This document shows, piece after piece, positions 33,672 through 55,486 of a DNA stretch of 64,000 nucleotides (its first letter is position 1; the number at the start of each line of letters is the position of its first letter). The position numbers and the translations under genes were made by a program. Below the pieces are notes generated by a model. The model had not been told where the DNA came from and did not search any database. It saw only the letters and a program-made list of their open reading frames with translations. Source of the stretch: Chitinophagaceae bacterium (GTDB lineage Bacteria > Bacteroidota > Bacteroidia > Chitinophagales > Chitinophagaceae); assembly GCA_009996675.1 (NCBI GenBank), contig JAACZQ010000002.1, positions 1-64,000 of the forward strand, given 5' to 3'.

Positions 33672-33672
33672 G

Positions 33673-33719
33673 TGACCGCGTCAGGATTCAAACCTGAAAC
33701 CTTCTGATCCGTAGTCAGA
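33673..33719 (-). other. Prophage attachment site: 3' half of tRNA-Arg (ACG)
   Basis: On the minus strand this is a tRNA 3' half: anticodon stem TCTGA, loop CTACGGA (anticodon ACG), stem TCAGA, T-arm TCAGG-TTTGAAT-CCTGA and acceptor CGCGGTC with discriminator A. Upstream of TCTGA the sequence no longer resembles a D-arm. Prophage genes begin just beyond, so this is attL with the displaced bacterial tRNA end. The full tRNA should be restored at the other end of the prophage, outside the window. Confidence 0.8.
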
Positions 33720-36408: not shown

Positions 36409-36822
36409 ATGAACATTGAAAACCTCTCTCATGCATGTGAGATAATGAATCTCGATTCTGCTGCGCTGTTCGCCCCAATCCAAGGTATTGATGAAAGATA
36501 CAGAGATGCAGTATCAGCCTTCCTGGAAACATTGGTATTGACGGATGCTGCCAATATTGATCCTGAAACGAAGGAAAGGTGGGTTCCTGATTATAACAAT
36601 TCGAAGGAAAGAAAGTGGACTAACTGGTTTGATTTGGAAGTTCATCCTAAGAACAACCCCTCGGGCTTTCGCTTCTACGATTCGGTTTGCGTTAACGCGT
36701 ATGCGATTGCGGTCGGCGCCGGACTTTGCTTCAAAGATAGTTCCACGGCAAGATTCATGGGAGAGAAGCATCAAAATGTATACAAACGCTGGTTATCATT
36801 CGTGAAGCCGGTAGGAAAATAG
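36409..36822 (+). CDS. DGR variable protein 1 (remote target)
   Basis: A 137-residue protein. The variable region spans residues about 84-107 (encoded by VR1, 36659-36730) and is followed by a conserved GLCFKD and a helical tail. The layout (W-x-PDY-N..., a conserved SGFRF entry into the variable loop, then GLCFKD) matches variable protein 2 at 41042. I recall small Bacteroidota phage and mobile-element proteins with a similar ending. It is about 4.8 kb upstream of the reverse transcriptase. Probably displays a hypervariable loop; its binding partner is unknown. Confidence 0.85.
   Translation: MNIENLSHACEIMNLDSAALFAPIQGIDERYRDAVSAFLETLVLTDAANIDPETKERWVPDYNNSKERKWTNWFDLEVHPKNNPSGFRFYDSVCVNAYAIAVGAGLCFKDSSTARFMGEKHQNVYKRWLSFVKPVGK
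36659..36730 (+). repeat. DGR variable repeat VR1
   Basis: Aligns with the template repeat 41469-41540 over 72 nt with no gap. All 14 mismatches are at template adenines; no other base differs. It is followed by a hairpin CTTTG-CTT-CAAAG (36724-36736) that is absent from the template, as expected for the cis-acting target side. Confidence 0.92.
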
Positions 36823-37022: not shown

Positions 37023-37094
<72 letters not shown>

Positions 37095-37124
37095 CTCTCT
37101 TCCCCCCGATATACCGGATCGAGT

Positions 37125-40656: not shown

Positions 40657-41045
40657 TGGCAAACTGTCAATTCCCAGCCTGCAGAAGAGAGGCTACAAAG
40701 GGTATTTACTGCTACGACCATAACCGGTTGATGGGTAATACTAAGCCCGTTGAACAACCTAAGTCAATTAACAAGGAGGGCGAAAAAATGAAGGATATAA
40801 AGGCTGAGCTGAAAAAGAAATACCCGCTCTTTCTCAAAAAGAATCCTTTCTGCAATATCGAATCTCCAGTGTGCACCAAAGTAGCAACCTGTGTAAACCA
40901 TACCCGGGGTAGAGGTAGGGACGAGATTCTGAACGAGGATACCTGGGAATCAAGCTGTGTGCCATGTAACCAGTTTATCGAAAGCCATCCCGATTGGAAT
41001 GGCGGCCAACATAAAATATCTCCTCATACAAAACAAACAAAATGA
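40656..41045 (+). CDS. Zinc-binding HNH-like phage protein
   Basis: A 129-residue protein. An N-terminal Cys/His cluster (CQFPACRR...YCYDH) and a second zinc-type region (PFCNIESPVC...CVNHTRGR, then SCVPCNQFIESHP) resemble NinG/HNH-type recombination nucleases. The stop overlaps the DGR target start by 4 nt. Confidence 0.7.
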   Translation: MANCQFPACRREATKGIYCYDHNRLMGNTKPVEQPKSINKEGEKMKDIKAELKKKYPLFLKKNPFCNIESPVCTKVATCVNHTRGRGRDEILNEDTWESSCVPCNQFIESHPDWNGGQHKISPHTKQTK

Positions 41046-41437
41046 AAACAAACTTCGAACACTCATGTGCACTCCAGGGCTATGACGCTAAGGCAATTAC
41101 TGAAGCGTTGTCCACACTTCCTGAAGCAATACGGGGTCCGATTACAGCCGTTACAAAATTGGTTGTAATGAATCCTGTTGCAAATATGGAATCTGAAACA
41201 GATGAAAAGTGGGCTCCGGATTATGACAACCTTAATCAGGAAAAATGGTGCTCTGTTTTTGATCTTAATAAGGATGATAACAACCCCTCGGGCTTTCGCT
41301 TCGTCGGTTCGGGTTACGATCGCACGGGTGCGGGTGCGGACGGCGCCGGACTTTGCTTCAAAGATGATGAGACCAGAGAGGAGTTCGTGAAAGATCACGA
41401 GGAACTGTATCGTCAGTGGCTCAAAATGGGCAAATAA
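41042..41437 (+). CDS. DGR variable protein 2 (adjacent target)
   Basis: A 131-residue protein related to variable protein 1: same W-x-PDYDN, NNPSGFRF and GAGLCFKD frame. The variable loop (residues about 82-106) reads GSGYDRTGAGADG here, against DSVCVNAYAIAVG in the other. Encoded directly upstream of the template repeat and reverse transcriptase, the standard DGR order. Probably a soluble display scaffold. Confidence 0.87.
   Translation: MKTNFEHSCALQGYDAKAITEALSTLPEAIRGPITAVTKLVVMNPVANMESETDEKWAPDYDNLNQEKWCSVFDLNKDDNNPSGFRFVGSGYDRTGAGADGAGLCFKDDETREEFVKDHEELYRQWLKMGK
41286..41357 (+). repeat. DGR variable repeat VR2
   Basis: Gapless 72-nt alignment with the template repeat; all 16 mismatches are at template adenines. 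It differs from VR1 at many of these sites. It ends in the same GGCGCCGGACTTTGCT block and hairpin (41351-41363) as VR1. Confidence 0.93.
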
Positions 41438-41468
41438 AACTAACAGGCTGTGTGCTATGCAGGTGTGT

Positions 41469-41540
41469 CCTCAGGCTTTCGCTTCAACGATTCGAATTAC
41501 GATAACACGAATGCGAATGCGGACAGCGCCAGACAATGCT
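41469..41540 (+). repeat. DGR template repeat (TR)
   Basis: A 72-nt non-coding copy with 21 adenines, rich in AAC and AAT codons in the frame of the targets, which maximises the diversity produced by adenine mutagenesis. Identity with VR1 and VR2 stops at CCTCAGG on the left and AATGCT on the right. It lies 31 nt after the VR2 gene and 108 nt before the reverse transcriptase start. Confidence 0.93.
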
Positions 41541-41648
41541 GATCTCTTTTGATAGCACAGGCCTTGCCAACATGGCAAAAAATTACACGACAGATAGGGG
41601 CTGTAGTATCCCGTTTTGGTAGAGAGGCAGACCCTTGAAACAGCAAAC

Positions 41649-42728
41649 ATGAAACGACACAATAACATATTTGAGCGCATTTGCTCCCTGGAGAATCTCC
41701 GGGAGGCTGACCGCAAGGCTAGAAAGGATAAAGCGCATAAATATGGTGTGAAACTTCATGATCAAAACAGGGAACAGAATATCCTTGAATTGCAAAATAT
41801 GCTGTTAAGTCAAACTTACCGGACCTCAGAATACAATGTTTTTACTGTTTATGAACCCAAAGAGCGGATGGTGTACCAACTTCCTTATTACCCGGATAGG
41901 ATCACCCACCATGCAATACTGAATCAACTGGAGCCTTATTTCGTCCGATCATTTACTGCAGATACATACAGCTGTATAAAGGGCAGGGGTATTCATTTGG
42001 GAGCTAAAAAGATCATTCGTGCGCTAAAGAACGTGGATGCTACCAGGTACTGCCTGCAGATCGATATTCGGAAATTCTACCCAAGTATTGATCATGATAT
42101 TTTAAAAAACCTGCTTTCAAGAAAGTTTAAAGACAGGAAGTTGTTGTGGTTGTTGGATGAGATAATTGATAGTGCTGACGGTGTGCCCATCGGTAATTAT
42201 CTGAGTCAATTTTTCTCGAACTATTATCTGACTCCTTTTGATCACTGGTTAAAAGAAGTGGTAAAGGTCGGATCGTACTTCAGATACATGGACGACATGG
42301 CCATATTCGCTTCCAATAAGCCTGAACTGCATGGAATTCTTGCATTGATAAGAGAATACCTGAGCACCCGCCTTAATCTGGATTTAAAAAGTAACTACCA
42401 GATTTTTCCAGTGGCTTCAAGGGGTGTGGACATGTTAGGGTATGTATTCTATCACGAACATGTTCTGCTCAGGCCCGGGATCAAGAAAAATTTTGCCAGA
42501 AAGATGGCTAAAGGGATCAGTCAGGAATCATTCGCTGGCTTTATGGGTTGGGCAAAGCATTGTAATAGTAGACATCTGATAAAAAAACTTACGAATGAAA
42601 GATTTCAGCCAATTGAACGTATCACAACAACAGAACGGATTTATAGGAACCAGGATAGATATGCCGGACGTTTTCAACCAGCCTATAATAGTCCATGCAT
42701 TCAAGGTAGCTCCGTCGAAGTTCCCTAA
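41649..42728 (+). CDS. DGR reverse transcriptase
   Basis: A 359-residue enzyme. Motif A has D139 in IDIRKFYPSID, motif D/YMDD is Y213-M-D-D216, and motif 4 reads I181-G-N-Y-L-S-Q187, the IGxxxSQ form typical of DGR reverse transcriptases in place of the QG of group II intron and retron enzymes. No maturase or endonuclease domain. ATG 41649 (MKRHNNIFERI) is chosen over a TTG at 41616. The last about 45 residues overlap the next gene by 134 nt and look non-conserved. Function: error-prone cDNA of the TR, with mutagenic homing into VR1 and VR2. Confidence 0.93.
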   Translation: MKRHNNIFERICSLENLREADRKARKDKAHKYGVKLHDQNREQNILELQNMLLSQTYRTSEYNVFTVYEPKERMVYQLPYYPDRITHHAILNQLEPYFVRSFTADTYSCIKGRGIHLGAKKIIRALKNVDATRYCLQIDIRKFYPSIDHDILKNLLSRKFKDRKLLWLLDEIIDSADGVPIGNYLSQFFSNYYLTPFDHWLKEVVKVGSYFRYMDDMAIFASNKPELHGILALIREYLSTRLNLDLKSNYQIFPVASRGVDMLGYVFYHEHVLLRPGIKKNFARKMAKGISQESFAGFMGWAKHCNSRHLIKKLTNERFQPIERITTTERIYRNQDRYAGRFQPAYNSPCIQGSSVEVP

Positions 42729-42909
42729 GCCTGGGCGAGAGGAATGCCTCCATATGCAGATTGAAGTTGAAGGCAAGAAGCGGGTTTTGTTTTGCACATC
42801 GAGAGTTATGATTAATACCCTTCAGAATATAGACCCGGAAGATTTTCCTTTTAAGACTGTAATAAAAAAGAACGATAAACGATTTGAATTCACCGGATGC
42901 CCTATTTGA
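42595..42909 (+). CDS. Hypothetical phage protein, possible ssDNA-binding fold
   Basis: A 104-residue beta-rich protein (IIVHAFKVAPSKFPKPG, LHMQIEVEGKKRVLFCTSRV). It looks truly coding, even where it overlaps the reverse transcriptase. The RV-x-F-C-T-S core and size would suit an OB-like fold, but I cannot place it. Confidence 0.6.
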   Translation: MKDFSQLNVSQQQNGFIGTRIDMPDVFNQPIIVHAFKVAPSKFPKPGREECLHMQIEVEGKKRVLFCTSRVMINTLQNIDPEDFPFKTVIKKNDKRFEFTGCPI

Positions 42910-43118
42910 ATGACCATATCAGAAAACCATGGGTGTCTGCAAATGCTGGAGATGAGGTTTGGATAGTAGGGGATCATGGTAATGTGTTGATCGTAAAAGA
43001 TAGATACAATGTCCGTTTTTCAGTAGCTCAGGATAAGCTATCTGATTCGTTCCCAGACCACATACCCGCACTGCCAGAAACCAAAGTGAGTACAAAAACT
43101 AAAAAAAGGAGAGCATGA
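42897..43118 (+). CDS. Hypothetical phage protein
   Basis: A 73-residue protein overlapping the previous gene by 13 nt. GDEVWIVGDHGNVLIV suggests an SH3- or KOW-like strand pattern; C-terminal basic tail. Unknown function. Confidence 0.55.
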   Translation: MPYLNDHIRKPWVSANAGDEVWIVGDHGNVLIVKDRYNVRFSVAQDKLSDSFPDHIPALPETKVSTKTKKRRA

Positions 43119-43384
43119 ATAAAAACGAGATATGGCATGCAATTGAGCTGGAGTTAAGGAAGGCAAAAAAGAAACATCCAAGCTGGCCAGACCATCCAGC
43201 AGCTCAGGCGGGAATTGTAGTTGAGGAAGCAGGTGAACTTATGCAGTCTTGCCTACAATGGAAATATGAAAGAGCACCGGAAGAGATAGATCAGGAGGTT
43301 CAAAAAGAACGGATGAAACAAGAAGCGATACAAACCGCTGTAACGGCAATAAGATTTTTGGAAAATTTAAATCACAACCTATGA
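43115..43384 (+). CDS. MazG-like protein (putative NTP pyrophosphohydrolase)
   Basis: An 89-residue all-alpha protein. GIVVEEAGELMQSCLQ resembles the EExxE helix of the MazG superfamily, with a second helix EAIQTAVTAIRFLE. The full set of metal ligands is not certain, so the activity is inferred. Confidence 0.55.
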   Translation: MNKNEIWHAIELELRKAKKKHPSWPDHPAAQAGIVVEEAGELMQSCLQWKYERAPEEIDQEVQKERMKQEAIQTAVTAIRFLENLNHNL

Positions 43385-43802: not shown

Positions 43803-45089
43803 ATGAAAGCGCGAACAAAATTACATATCAGAGTAAAAAAACTGAGTGAAGCGATGCCCAGGATTAAAAAAATCCAAGAGAAATGGGCGCATCAGAACTG
43901 TCTTCCTCACCTTGCTTACGCAAATAAATCATCCGCATTCTGCTTGGATTGTGGTAAGTCATTTTCTTTAGATATAATCAGTCGCAAGACAGCCACCTGT
44001 CCTCATTGCAAACAATATTTGAAAGTCGAGCTTACTAGGAAAACGACACACAAGGCTGTAACATATTTTGCCATAGCTCATGTTATAGAAGACTTCCAAG
44101 TCGCTGAATATTTTGAATTACGGGCCTATTACAAAAAGGGAGAGAAAGTCCACTATTTTCTTCAGGCTATAATGGAAGATTGGATTTTACCAAATGGCAA
44201 AATCACTAAAATCGGGCTTCTTCACACCTTAAACTACTATTGTGATTCGTTTTCTGGCTCTTGGGAAATAAGAGATTGGCGCCATGCAGGATATTATACA
44301 AGGTCAAAATATGAGATCTATCCTCGAATGTATCATCCCGACTCAGTATTCAAGCCAGAATTTAAAAAAATTGGCATCAATAAGAATCTAGCTGGATTAA
44401 CACTACCGGAAGCAATCAGCATTATTCCTTATAACCCCAAAGCAGAAACGCTCTTAAAAGCCAAAAGGTTTGAATTGTTAGAACATGTGACAAGTGGAAG
44501 TGAGATAAACAGATTCTGGCCATCGATCAAAATTGCCCTTCGGAATAAGTATAAAATCAAAGACGTTAAAATCTGGTTTGATTATCTGGACCTGCTCATC
44601 TACTTCCAAAAGGATCTGCACAACGCTGTTTATGTATGCCCTAAAAATTTAAAGAAGGAGCATGATCGTCTTGTAAACAAAAAAAGGGACAGACAACGAA
44701 GGGAAGAAATTGAGCGACGGAGAAGAGAAATCGAACAAGCAGATATTTTATTCAGATCTAAAATTGAAAAGTTTACTGGTCTGCAGTTCAAATCAGGAGA
44801 GATCGTTGTTAAGGTTCTGGAAAGTGTCAAGGAGTTTGAACAGGAGGGAGAAATCCTAAACCATTGCGTATTTACGAACGAATATTATGCGAAGGAAGAG
44901 TCATTGATATTATCTGCCAGGATTGATAATGTTCCAGTTGAAACCATTGAGATTAATCTTGGGAATATGAAAATTGTGCAATCGAGAGGATTAGGTAATA
45001 ATCCTAGTGCCTATAATAAAAAAATTGTAGCACTTGTAAAAAAGAATATACCTGAAATCAGAAGAATTTTTAATCATAAAATAGCATAG
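43803..45089 (+). CDS. PcfJ-like protein
   Basis: A 428-residue protein. An early zinc ribbon (FCLDCGKSF... CPHCKQYL) is followed by a helical body and the PcfJ C-terminal domain with LNHCVFTNEYYAKEESLILSAR. The PcfK-PcfJ pair is widespread in mobile elements but of unknown role. It starts 2 nt after pcfK. Confidence 0.85.
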   Translation: MKARTKLHIRVKKLSEAMPRIKKIQEKWAHQNCLPHLAYANKSSAFCLDCGKSFSLDIISRKTATCPHCKQYLKVELTRKTTHKAVTYFAIAHVIEDFQVAEYFELRAYYKKGEKVHYFLQAIMEDWILPNGKITKIGLLHTLNYYCDSFSGSWEIRDWRHAGYYTRSKYEIYPRMYHPDSVFKPEFKKIGINKNLAGLTLPEAISIIPYNPKAETLLKAKRFELLEHVTSGSEINRFWPSIKIALRNKYKIKDVKIWFDYLDLLIYFQKDLHNAVYVCPKNLKKEHDRLVNKKRDRQRREEIERRRREIEQADILFRSKIEKFTGLQFKSGEIVVKVLESVKEFEQEGEILNHCVFTNEYYAKEESLILSARIDNVPVETIEINLGNMKIVQSRGLGNNPSAYNKKIVALVKKNIPEIRRIFNHKIA

Positions 45090-52167: not shown

Positions 52168-53553
52168 GTGGCCAGAAAACTTACATTCAAATTCCCTGAA
52201 GAATTATTCGGCAGTTCTTTTCTGCCGTACCTGGAGTGTCTGACACGAATTCAGTTGTTCACGGGTAACCGCGGCTCGGGCAAGACTACATTTCTTCAGC
52301 AAAAAGCAATCATATTCGCCCTAACAAAGAAGTATTTTCGACTCATCTACACGCGAAAAGTTTCCGAGAACATCCGGGATAGCTTGTTTCAGGGATTCAA
52401 GGATATTATCCATGATTGGAGTTTAGAGAAGTATTTCAAGATCAAGGAGTCAGAGATGGATATCATCTGTATTCCTACGGGCAACATGCTCCTTTCATTT
52501 GGATTGGATAAGCCGGAGAAATTAAAGGGTATAAAGGATCCCACACATATCCTCTGCGATGAGATGACGGAGATAACCTTCCAGGATTATTCTGCTTTGA
52601 TAGCACTTCTCAGAACAAGTAAAACGGCGATAACACAGTTTTGGGGTACTTTCAATCCGGAATACGGATTCTGGGGCCGCGACTATTTCTTTGCTGATAG
52701 TGAAAGCGATGAAATACCGCTCGGTGTGGTCCCTTCAAAGGGCGATGATGTCATTATCATTAAAGGGTCATTTAAGCACAATCAATTCATCGATGCAGTG
52801 GCTTATGAGAAGCTGCTGCTTGAATTGGCAAGGGGAGATGAGAATAAGCTTACTGTCTGGATTGAGGGTAATTGGGGTCAATCTATTACTGGAAACGAGT
52901 ATTTCACCGAATATAAAAAGTCGGTTCATGCAATGCAGGTGCCTTTCTTGGCTGATAAGGCAGTTCATGTAACATTCGATTTTAACACGGTACCATACAT
53001 GACTCTTCTCGGCATGCAAGTTAATATCACCGCAGAGGCATTCGAGATTCGTGTATTTCGTGAATATTGCCTCAAATCTCCATTAAACAGTACAACAGCG
53101 GTTTGTAAGAAGTTCCTGGAAGACTATACCCCGGCAGATTTGCTTTATTATGGGGATGCATCTGGAGAAAATAACATCGCCGGAAAAGGCAATGTTACAG
53201 CATTTGACGATGTCCGCATTGCTTTCTTTCACCTGATCACAGATGCAAGCAACCGAGTTTTGAAGCGAAACCCTCCGATCTTAAAGCGCAGAGACTTTAT
53301 GAACGATATTCTGGGCGGCCGGTTGAAATATGAAGGATTGCCGATTCTACTTATGATCGATGAGAGTTGTAAGGAACTGCTCAAGGATATGCTGAAACTG
53401 AAAATGGGAGCAGATGGCAAAAAGTTGAAGGTGAAAGTGAAAGACAAGGCGAGTGGAATTTCTTACGAGGAGCTGGGACATACTTCAGATGCACTTGAAT
53501 ATATGATCGTTCAACTCTTATGGGACGAATTTTCCAAAAAGCAAAACAAATAA
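52168..53553 (+). CDS. terL: Terminase large subunit
   Basis: A 461-residue packaging motor. Walker A G33-N-R-G-S-G-K39-T40, Walker B ILCDE with D131-E132, and a C-terminal nuclease domain starting HVTFDFNTVPYMTLLG. The GTG start at 52168 follows the preceding stop by one nt. Cleaves and translocates DNA into the prohead. Confidence 0.9.
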   Translation: MARKLTFKFPEELFGSSFLPYLECLTRIQLFTGNRGSGKTTFLQQKAIIFALTKKYFRLIYTRKVSENIRDSLFQGFKDIIHDWSLEKYFKIKESEMDIICIPTGNMLLSFGLDKPEKLKGIKDPTHILCDEMTEITFQDYSALIALLRTSKTAITQFWGTFNPEYGFWGRDYFFADSESDEIPLGVVPSKGDDVIIIKGSFKHNQFIDAVAYEKLLLELARGDENKLTVWIEGNWGQSITGNEYFTEYKKSVHAMQVPFLADKAVHVTFDFNTVPYMTLLGMQVNITAEAFEIRVFREYCLKSPLNSTTAVCKKFLEDYTPADLLYYGDASGENNIAGKGNVTAFDDVRIAFFHLITDASNRVLKRNPPILKRRDFMNDILGGRLKYEGLPILLMIDESCKELLKDMLKLKMGADGKKLKVKVKDKASGISYEELGHTSDALEYMIVQLLWDEFSKKQNK

Positions 53554-53581: not shown

Positions 53582-55486
53582 ATGACACGGGAAGAGGCCT
53601 ATAAGGTGCTTATTGACACCGTTACGAATAATATCAAGCACGTTGATTATAAACGTGTAACCGATCTGGCTGATGATTACAGCATATACATTACCGGTGC
53701 CGGAATCGACAAAAAGCTGAAACGGTTCAATCCACGAGAGGATGAGGAAATGTTTAAGCAACGTAAAAACCTTACAATTGCCATAACTCCCGCAATTGCG
53801 TCTTCAATCAAAAGGCCGTTTAATAAAGTCCCCAGAACCCCACCAGTTACAAAAAAAGTCTCTGCCAAGGATAGAAATAATGAGCAGGCAGTGGCTGAAA
53901 TTCAGGAGCGTATCAATTCATTCTATGGTGGCGATGCGAATGTTGGAGGCCTGGATTATTGGATTCAAAACCGGTTTGTAGACCTTTCCTTTATAGATCC
54001 GAATAGCTGGATTGTTATTGAATTTGATCCATTCGATAGCAATATTGAGAAGGCATATCCACGGCCATTTGAGGTTACATCTAAACAGGCTGTCAACTTT
54101 TCAATCCTTAACAACAAGGTCCAGTGGCTGGTTGTAGAGACTGAAATCACCTATCCAACCAAAAAAGATGGGCTGATCGATGTTGCAAATGGTATTGTGC
54201 CGAATACCCAATCGTTAAAGCAGAATAAAGGTAAAAAGTTCACGATATATGCTGACAATGACGCAGTAACGCTAACTCAAACCAGCAAGGATGATAACGA
54301 CAGGATTCTTGCCATACCAGGTGAGCAATTGATCAATATTGAGGGCAAGGGCACATTCATCGTCAACTTTTATGAAACTAAAACAGAATCATGCCCGGCT
54401 TTCCGGGTGGGCTATATCCCGGATGTGCAGACACAAGGGCGCACATATGTCAACCCGTTTCATGATGCCCTATGCCATATCGAAAAATCGGTAAAAACTG
54501 TCAGTGAGTTTGACCTGGCCACTTGCCTGCATACCTTCCCGCAGAAGGTAGTTCGCATTACAAAATCATGTCAGGGAAATGGTACGCAGAAATGTAAGGG
54601 GGGCAAGCTCACAGACGGAACAACATGCCCGACCTGTAAAGGGACAGGCAAGCCAATTCACACTTCCGGGCAGGATGTGGTTGAGGTGGCGATGCCTGAG
54701 ACAAAAGAGGATTATGTTCCGCTGTCTGATTTTATTCATTACGTTGACACACCGGTGGAGCTGCTTAAGTTCCAGAAGGAGCTTACTGACGCAGTAGAAA
54801 TCAAGTGTCACCAAACGGTATTCAATTCAACAGCGCTCCTTAGAAAGCCGAATGGTGGACAGCAGATAGATCCAACGGCTACTGAGGTAAACAACGACAT
54901 GGAAAGCGTTTACGATACACTTTCTCCGTTTGGCGAGAAAGTTTCAAGCGTATGGACCATTGTTGTGCAGTTTATTGCCATTCTAACAGACAATAAGGAC
55001 AAGGTGAGTATTCTGCACCGCTTCCCATCAAACTTTAAACTGAAAACCCGTACCGATCTGTATGTAGAAAGGAAAACACTAAAGGATGCGGGGTCTCCAC
55101 CATTCGTAATGGATGCTGTCGATGACGAGCTGGCGCAGGATATCTATGCGGATGATGCAGATAGTCTGCTGCAATACCGCGTAAAGAAGGAGCATTTCCC
55201 TTTCCCGGGTAAATCGCCAGAGGATATTCAGTTCCTGCTGTCAGCAAGTACTACGCTGAAAAAGACGAAAATTCTGTATACATATTTCGATCAGATATTC
55301 ACCGAGCTGCAACGCGAGAGTCTGGCCGCTAACAACGATTTCTATCTGCTGAAGCCGGCTGAGAGGCAAACGAAGATTGATGAGAAAGTTAAAGGCATTT
55401 TGGACGAGCTCAGCAATGAAACTCAAACAGCCTTTCCTTTACATGCTATCCCTTTAAACTCGCCTGATAAAACTGAGGTAGCCTAA
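53582..55486 (+). CDS. Portal protein with a CxxC insertion
   Basis: A 634-residue protein between terminase and the MuF-like gene, matching a portal by position, size and overall helical/beta layout. An insertion near residues 325-360 has CQGNGTQKCKGG and CPTCKGTGK, a DnaJ-type zinc-binding pattern unusual in portals. Forms the dodecameric vertex through which DNA enters. Confidence 0.75.
   Translation: MTREEAYKVLIDTVTNNIKHVDYKRVTDLADDYSIYITGAGIDKKLKRFNPREDEEMFKQRKNLTIAITPAIASSIKRPFNKVPRTPPVTKKVSAKDRNNEQAVAEIQERINSFYGGDANVGGLDYWIQNRFVDLSFIDPNSWIVIEFDPFDSNIEKAYPRPFEVTSKQAVNFSILNNKVQWLVVETEITYPTKKDGLIDVANGIVPNTQSLKQNKGKKFTIYADNDAVTLTQTSKDDNDRILAIPGEQLINIEGKGTFIVNFYETKTESCPAFRVGYIPDVQTQGRTYVNPFHDALCHIEKSVKTVSEFDLATCLHTFPQKVVRITKSCQGNGTQKCKGGKLTDGTTCPTCKGTGKPIHTSGQDVVEVAMPETKEDYVPLSDFIHYVDTPVELLKFQKELTDAVEIKCHQTVFNSTALLRKPNGGQQIDPTATEVNNDMESVYDTLSPFGEKVSSVWTIVVQFIAILTDNKDKVSILHRFPSNFKLKTRTDLYVERKTLKDAGSPPFVMDAVDDELAQDIYADDADSLLQYRVKKEHFPFPGKSPEDIQFLLSASTTLKKTKILYTYFDQIFTELQRESLAANNDFYLLKPAERQTKIDEKVKGILDELSNETQTAFPLHAIPLNSPDKTEVA

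Follow-up and report, generated by a model that had tools for sequence, protein, structure and literature searches.

The locus described here raises two questions: whether a reverse transcriptase (RT) and neighbouring repeats in a bacterial prophage form a diversity-generating retroelement (DGR) and, if so, which kind of protein is being diversified. The window, that is, the whole stretch of DNA that was analysed, comprises 64,000 nt (positions 1 to 64,000 of contig JAACZQ010000002.1, from a Chitinophagaceae bacterium). A C-terminal variable repeat (VR) in the target, an Avd accessory protein, a C-type lectin fold in the variable protein, and a hairpin after the VR are usual, but not required, in DGRs. 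In the available text of PMC8144416, the DGR targets of phages are described as mostly tail proteins, with VRs that are typically C-terminal and with annotated VR regions that are C-lectin folds.

Template and Variable Repeats

The template repeat (TR; 41469-41540, + strand) was delimited by ungapped alignments to two VRs and by a pattern scan in which the TR adenines were left free. VR2 (41286-41357, + strand) is internal to target gene 2, and the original prediction, that it aligns with TR over 72 nt without gaps and that all 16 mismatches fall at TR adenines, was reproduced upon realignment. The 51/51 non-A TR positions matched, and, with 21 adenines in TR, the probability that all 16 mismatches would hit adenines, were mismatches placed anywhere, is P = 4.9e-12. 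The scan with free adenines identified VR1 (36659-36730, + strand), 4.8 kb upstream of TR and internal to target gene 1, a paralogue of the VR2 gene; here too 51/51 non-A TR positions matched, and 14/14 changes were at adenines. The DGR had originally been placed at 41042..42728; these coordinates are correct, but they omit VR1 and the open reading frame (ORF) at 42595-42909. A 57-base pattern, with N at the TR adenines, occurred three times in the 64-kb window and in none of 100 shuffles, and TR, VR1, and VR2 were the only matching places in the whole genome. VR1 and VR2 differ from one another at 14 sites, each of them a template adenine, and zero non-adenine drift was seen in the 102 non-A positions of the two VRs.

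Six changes (6/16 of those in VR2) are identical in VR1 and VR2, four of them in a 3′ segment that is nearly fixed in the family, so that approximately 10 of the 16 VR2 changes inform on random mutagenesis. Among 106 anchored VRs (out of 110 VR-TR pairs from 54 loci), three 3′ adenine sites were nearly invariant, with G in 78/81, G in 78/80, and T in 86/106. Given these nearly fixed sites, the 3′ segment, whose TR and VR versions differ, is read as a putative homing-start region; encoding GAGLCFKD here and GSRLCFKS in most relatives, it would place the homing-start site inside coding DNA. Near copies (L066, L071, L074, L075, L076, L081, L082, L086, L088, L089, and L097) were left out of the VR-TR pair counts, as were L105-L108 (no RT or TR seen), L129, and L142. 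Pooled across loci, 35/6,387 non-A sites differed between VR and TR, a count that was set aside as proof, since the pair finder itself requires mostly adenine mismatches. A BPP-1-like hairpin 3′ of the VR was considered and rejected: hairpins of at least 7 bp just 3′ of the VR were found in 0/110 VRs (shuffled mean 1.15), and the best stem in the window was 5 bp.

Reverse Transcriptase and Spacer RNA

DGR-type RTs are recognised by an SQ motif together with YxDD. The RT gene that follows TR (41649..42728, + strand; 359 aa from the ATG) matched PF00078 (5.6e-16) and phrog_1423 (4.8e-120), its reading frame is open, and both of the motifs that had been reported were found, IGNYLSQ at residue 181 and YMDD at residue 213; the SQ motif of DGR RTs is named in the available text of PMC3521204. 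The cassette, with its TR, two adenine-only VRs, and an RT that matches phage reverse transcriptases, is a DGR, in agreement with the earlier claim that it bears the defining pattern of adenine mutagenesis. ATG 41649 is the most likely RT start, with TTG 41616 as an alternative, since the family profile begins at 41649. At the 3′ end, the RT frame overlaps the next ORF by 134 nt (42595-42728); the family RT profile ends at ~42608, the next ORF begins within 25 nt of the profile end in most relatives, and the final ~40 codons of the RT frame resemble an extension that is out of frame. The YMDD of the window RT is replaced by YADD in 84/88 RTs of target-bearing loci (duplicates included).

An RT-based scan revealed an adenine-biased repeat pair in 39/52 viral loci at the first scan. 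Among related genomes, 6/60 contained an RT match (own genome included), the best other match (G047) being 35% identical. A tree was built from 106 RT segments, whose tips were drawn from the scans and do not amount to a census. The window RT is placed there with other loci that bear a TR/VR pair, and 63 tips that have small targets and the linked ORF described below fell into one clade (support 0.855), which also takes in L153, from a cut contig, and L143, from a crAss-like phage. L005 and L144, which carry target-like ORFs, lie outside this clade.

TR and RT are separated by a spacer of 108 nt in the window and of 93-121 nt in 49 loci; a role for the corresponding spacer in the DGR of Bordetella phage BPP-1 is described in the available text of PMC12875486. 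Across 36 spacer sequences, 12 base pairs were paired in 95.6% of cells, compared to 31-43% in slid controls, and the covariation score was 0.686, compared to 0.219 for shuffled sequences; relatedness inflates such covariation counts, but the slid control retains relatedness. The predicted elements are an RNA hairpin at 41564..41578 (+ strand; helix 1, 98.6% of cells paired, 3/4 pairs with double changes) and a second stem at 41597..41634 (+ strand), just 5′ of the RT gene, in which 41597-41603 would pair with 41628-41634 (helix 2, 94.4% of cells paired, 6/6 pairs with double changes). Folded alone, the window spacer gave a z-score of 0.00, and the argument for structure is therefore one of covariation only.

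An ORF Linked to the Reverse Transcriptase

The ORF that overlaps the 3′ end of the RT gene (42595..42909, + strand) encodes 104 aa and was recognised as a candidate accessory gene by family alignment and by its co-occurrence with the RT. It was present in 43/43 RT-bearing loci of the target-based scan (see below) and in 25/25 loci of its own scan, and it adjoined the RT in 5/5 non-own matches of two genome surveys. The structural model (pLDDT 88) consists mostly of strands and gave weak OB-fold-type matches; the protein is a candidate for nucleic-acid binding. No match of the ORF to the Avd-like family PF05635 was found in a Pfam scan, and the five PF05635 matches in the genome all lie on contigs other than that of the window. 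The linked ORF is proposed to act as the nucleic-acid-binding partner of the RT, in the place of Avd.

Target Genes

Target gene 1 (36409..36822, + strand; 137 aa), identified as an ORF and by family alignment, holds VR1, and target gene 2 (41042..41437, + strand; 131 aa) holds VR2; the two proteins are 38% identical. VR1 ends ~30 codons and VR2 ~26 codons before the stop. Among 73 family targets (from the target scan plus the window, much the same loci having been dropped as in the other counts), this distance was 21-36 codons, so that the VRs do not occupy the usual C-terminal position. Neither target protein had an over-cut-off match in Pfam or NCBIfam, a single weak match (phrog_11581, for target 1) was obtained in PHROGs, profile searches linked the targets to no tail or lectin family, and a membrane-like stretch was seen in 0/73 targets. 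A C-lectin fold was looked for in the targets: confidence in the predicted structure was low in the VR region, the target model had no structural match in the PDB, and BFVD gave a single match at E <= 0.001, to a phage protein that is itself uncharacterised.

As a query, the VR1 protein recovered itself alone, and the family was reached via L004; the target of this relative gave 225 matches at E <= 0.001, of which 120 were listed. A target-based scan of viral contigs yielded 47 loci, 43 of which carry an RT (43/47, identical contigs counted). Among these 43 loci, 38 have two VRs, 4 have three, and 1 has one, and in 42/43 the two or three VRs are adenine-only or adenine-biased. In loci on genome contigs that contain a target, the RT lies inside the locus in 17/34.

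Prophage, Host, and Gene Neighbourhood

The element had been assigned to a Bacteroidota prophage, an assignment that is supported by bounding repeats, phage genes, and the matches of a flanking gene to Chitinophagales. The left attachment repeat of the prophage (33672..33719) is 48 bp long and forms a perfect direct repeat with a partner at contig position 80528; a tyrosine integrase is encoded at contig positions 79220-80422, a terminase at 52168, and a portal protein at 53582. The named matches of a flanking efflux gene, among those listed, are of the Chitinophagales type (at most 58% identity), which makes a Bacteroidota host very likely; judged from these matches, the host probably belongs to the Chitinophagales. 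A tRNA search of the window revealed a tRNA-Met gene at 37023-37095, between the target genes. This gene raised the possibility that VR1 resides in a host gene outside the prophage, which was ruled out by the position of the repeat at 33672, since it places both targets, as well as the tRNA gene, inside the prophage. The tRNA region had no 10-base word in common with the right flank to which it was compared.

In addition to the tRNA-Met gene, the interval between targets 1 and 2 encodes an ERF-type annealing protein, a PDDEXK/FtsK protein, and an HNH-like protein. Immediately 3′ of the cassette are genes for a weakly MazG-like protein (43115-43384) and a PcfJ-like protein (43803-45089). Across 51 loci, Mu-type early genes were found beside the targets in 20 and primase in 15, both in none (35/51 in total). 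Eight of the other 16 loci were sampled: a helicase, an SbcC-like protein, a weakly Sak4-like protein, an FtsK/exonuclease, and DnaB were found in one each, methyltransferases in two, and nothing informative in one. The 51-locus count leaves out L066, L071, L074-L076, L078, L081, L082, L086, L088, L089, L097, L105-L108, L111, L135, L142, and genome loci without a repeat pair. From this gene content, rather than from expression, the targets are putatively classed as early genes.

Templates Shared with a Distant Target

In five genomes (L136, L137, L138, L141, and L142), a lone small target is found on the same contig as an RT and TR that lie 35-55 kb away, and a long ORF (415-444 codons) adjoining the RT is matched by the TR as well, its VR ending 2-7 codons before the stop. 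The mismatches at adenines numbered 14/14, 15/15, 12/12, 11/11, and 22/22 for the far VR in the small target and 16/16, 16/16, 15/16, 15/15, and 20/21 for the long-target VR, as returned by a finder that favours adenine mismatches. For the pair L141/L138, the TRs differ at 1/116 sites, the far VRs at 11/19 adenine sites and 0/56 others, and the long-target VRs at 16/28 adenine sites and 1/88 others. A profile comparison of small with long targets gave a probability of 10% over 21 columns. Distance alone is not new, since distant second targets are known in the Bacuni phages (available text of PMC8143477). A long target of the same TR, with its VR at the C-terminal end, is compatible with surface recognition too, which counts against an intracellular role for the targets.

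Natural Variation among Related Elements

Four prophages of an Elizabethkingia group (L069, L079, L119, and L133) have identical TRs; Elizabethkingia is named in the records of L119 and L133, and L069 and L079 were placed in the group without that name. Five of the six pairs show differences at 18-23 of the 36 adenine sites in the VRs, compared to 0/116 other VR sites, 0/76 TR sites, and 91-196 of 2,473-2,610 other sites. L079 and L133, which make up the remaining pair, show no difference over the stretch compared, and both were kept. L081 and L095 differ at 20/40 adenine sites, 5/122 other VR sites, and 1/81 TR sites. In L085-L089, by comparison, the VRs are identical despite flanks that differ at up to 441/7,353 sites, which counts against ongoing mutagenesis. 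Differences among L076, L077, and L078 were set aside, since their target copy number differs.

Proposed Mechanism and Alternatives

It is very probable that the prophage carries a DGR in which a single TR, matching two small paralogous genes, is copied by the RT with adenine errors and likely homes to both. The RT would copy the TR with errors at adenines, and the mutated copies would likely be pasted into both target genes, a step that we infer for the copy in the window. The targets would be soluble, early-made proteins. Phage DGRs are mostly understood as changers of receptor binding, whereas here mutation would hit small proteins encoded beside recombination, transposition, or primase genes. 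We tentatively suggest that the diversified patch recognises changing intracellular partners, namely host defence factors or rival phages, and not receptors on the cell surface.

An origin of the repeats in ordinary paralogy or in chance is vanishingly improbable. The target genes are indeed paralogues, but similarity to TR breaks off abruptly at the repeat, with all mismatches at TR adenines, which rules out both explanations. A DGR that is real but now inactive in this prophage, with VRs that are old copies, is a rather unlikely explanation. It would account for the lack of a second allele of the window's element in viral contigs or in 147 family genomes (own genome included), for the static VRs of L085-L089, and for the RT frame that, at variance with the relatives, extends over the first 134 nt of the following ORF; relatives that retain TR and VRs but have no RT in the locus also exist (L112 and L114), and these, like the lack of a second allele, count against the preferred reading as well. 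The open RT frame with both motifs, the 14 VR1/VR2 differences confined to template adenines, and the driftless non-A VR positions argue for activity. It is also doubtful that the ORF at 42595-42909 is an unrelated phage gene that travels with the RT. The ORF is missing from 47/52 RT-scan loci, L129 carries it with no detected RT, and its structural matches are weak, all of which count against a partner role; however, it begins within 25 nt of the RT profile end in 82/88 loci, it stays beside the RT despite different targets (3/5 survey matches), and PF05635 is absent from 16/16 family loci (contig numbers being taken to follow record numbers).

The remaining alternative concerns the targets: in an otherwise ordinary DGR, they may be virion- or tail-associated adhesins encoded outside the tail region, which we consider unlikely, though by no means far-fetched. 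The prevalence of tail proteins among phage DGR targets (PMC8144416, available text), the long ORF with a C-terminal VR that the TR fits next to the RT in five genomes, and a neck-type gene downstream in 12/51 loci (in the scanned example, it lies on the other strand) are in line with adhesins, whereas the recombination, transposition, or primase genes beside the targets in most loci, the internal VRs, and the lack of a matching tail or lectin family are not. Returning to the reading with intracellular targets, the element could possibly represent a separate lineage of Bacteroidota-phage DGRs, in which an OB-fold partner stands in for Avd and paired small early binders act inside the cell against host defences or rival phages, sometimes sharing their template with a long target of canonical layout; this proposal is equally provisional. 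The small internal-VR targets among DNA-handling genes and the linked ORF in the lack of Avd are unusual, and both recur across the phage family. The layout is shared by phages of different make-up; the putative homing site falls within coding sequence, and a different RT-linked protein is encoded where Avd would be expected. Two questions become testable, namely which factors other than Avd, HRDC, and MSL assist DGR RTs and whether phage proteins with intracellular roles are subject to diversification. The five genomes whose single template fits both a long target and, 35-55 kb away, a small protein of the early region offer a natural test of distant homing.

Relation to Known Systems

The combination of an RT, a TR, an adenine-only VR, and a structured TR-RT spacer is shared with the DGR of Bordetella phage BPP-1 (mtd, avd, TR, brt), which, in the available text of PMC3240598, has a single large tail protein as its target, the VR being C-terminal, together with Avd and a hairpin 3′ of the VR. 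Unlike BPP-1, the window element has two small targets, internal VRs, another RT-linked ORF, and no post-VR hairpin. The Bacuni phages of Bacteroides uniformis, also Bacteroidota phages, likewise have one TR and two targets, one of them far from the RT, but, unlike the window contig, they possess Avd (available text of PMC8143477). Several paralogous target ORFs per TR are also found in the multi-VR DGRs of surveys (PMC3521204 and PMC6642488, available text), and the table of PMC3521204, as available, lists no organism identified as a Bacteroidota phage with such a layout. No description of the small internal-VR targets or of the RT-linked ORF was found in open-licence papers, and the target clusters in survey supplements may hold the family. 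In a 13-kb region of the crAss-like phage cr55_1 (MT774376.1), which, unlike the window, yielded no small target, linked ORF, or TR/VR pair, the RT is ~53% identical to that of the window and groups with the small-target RT clade.

Atypical Loci

Near-identical phage contigs (L076, L077, and L078) contain two or three tandem target genes, a difference that suggests recombination between target copies. L109 and L114 have two to four target genes and no RT in the locus or in the searched genome, with TR kept in L114; the genome of the RT-less locus L134 likewise gave no RT match, and that of L131 only weak ones. In Aquimarina algiphila (L112, 6643-7078), TR and an extra truncated TR-like copy are found with no adjoining RT, and the RT match of this genome, on another contig (G061:C18:13541-14569), has three in-frame stops. 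An unannotated ORF in Bacteroides phage BT-TP2 (L144; PQ571279.1, 44874-45155) resembles the small targets, and the TR of this phage fits another, larger gene. In a Mucilaginibacter locus (L129, 5831-5935), the copy within the target gene resembles an unmutated template, as if it were yet undiversified.
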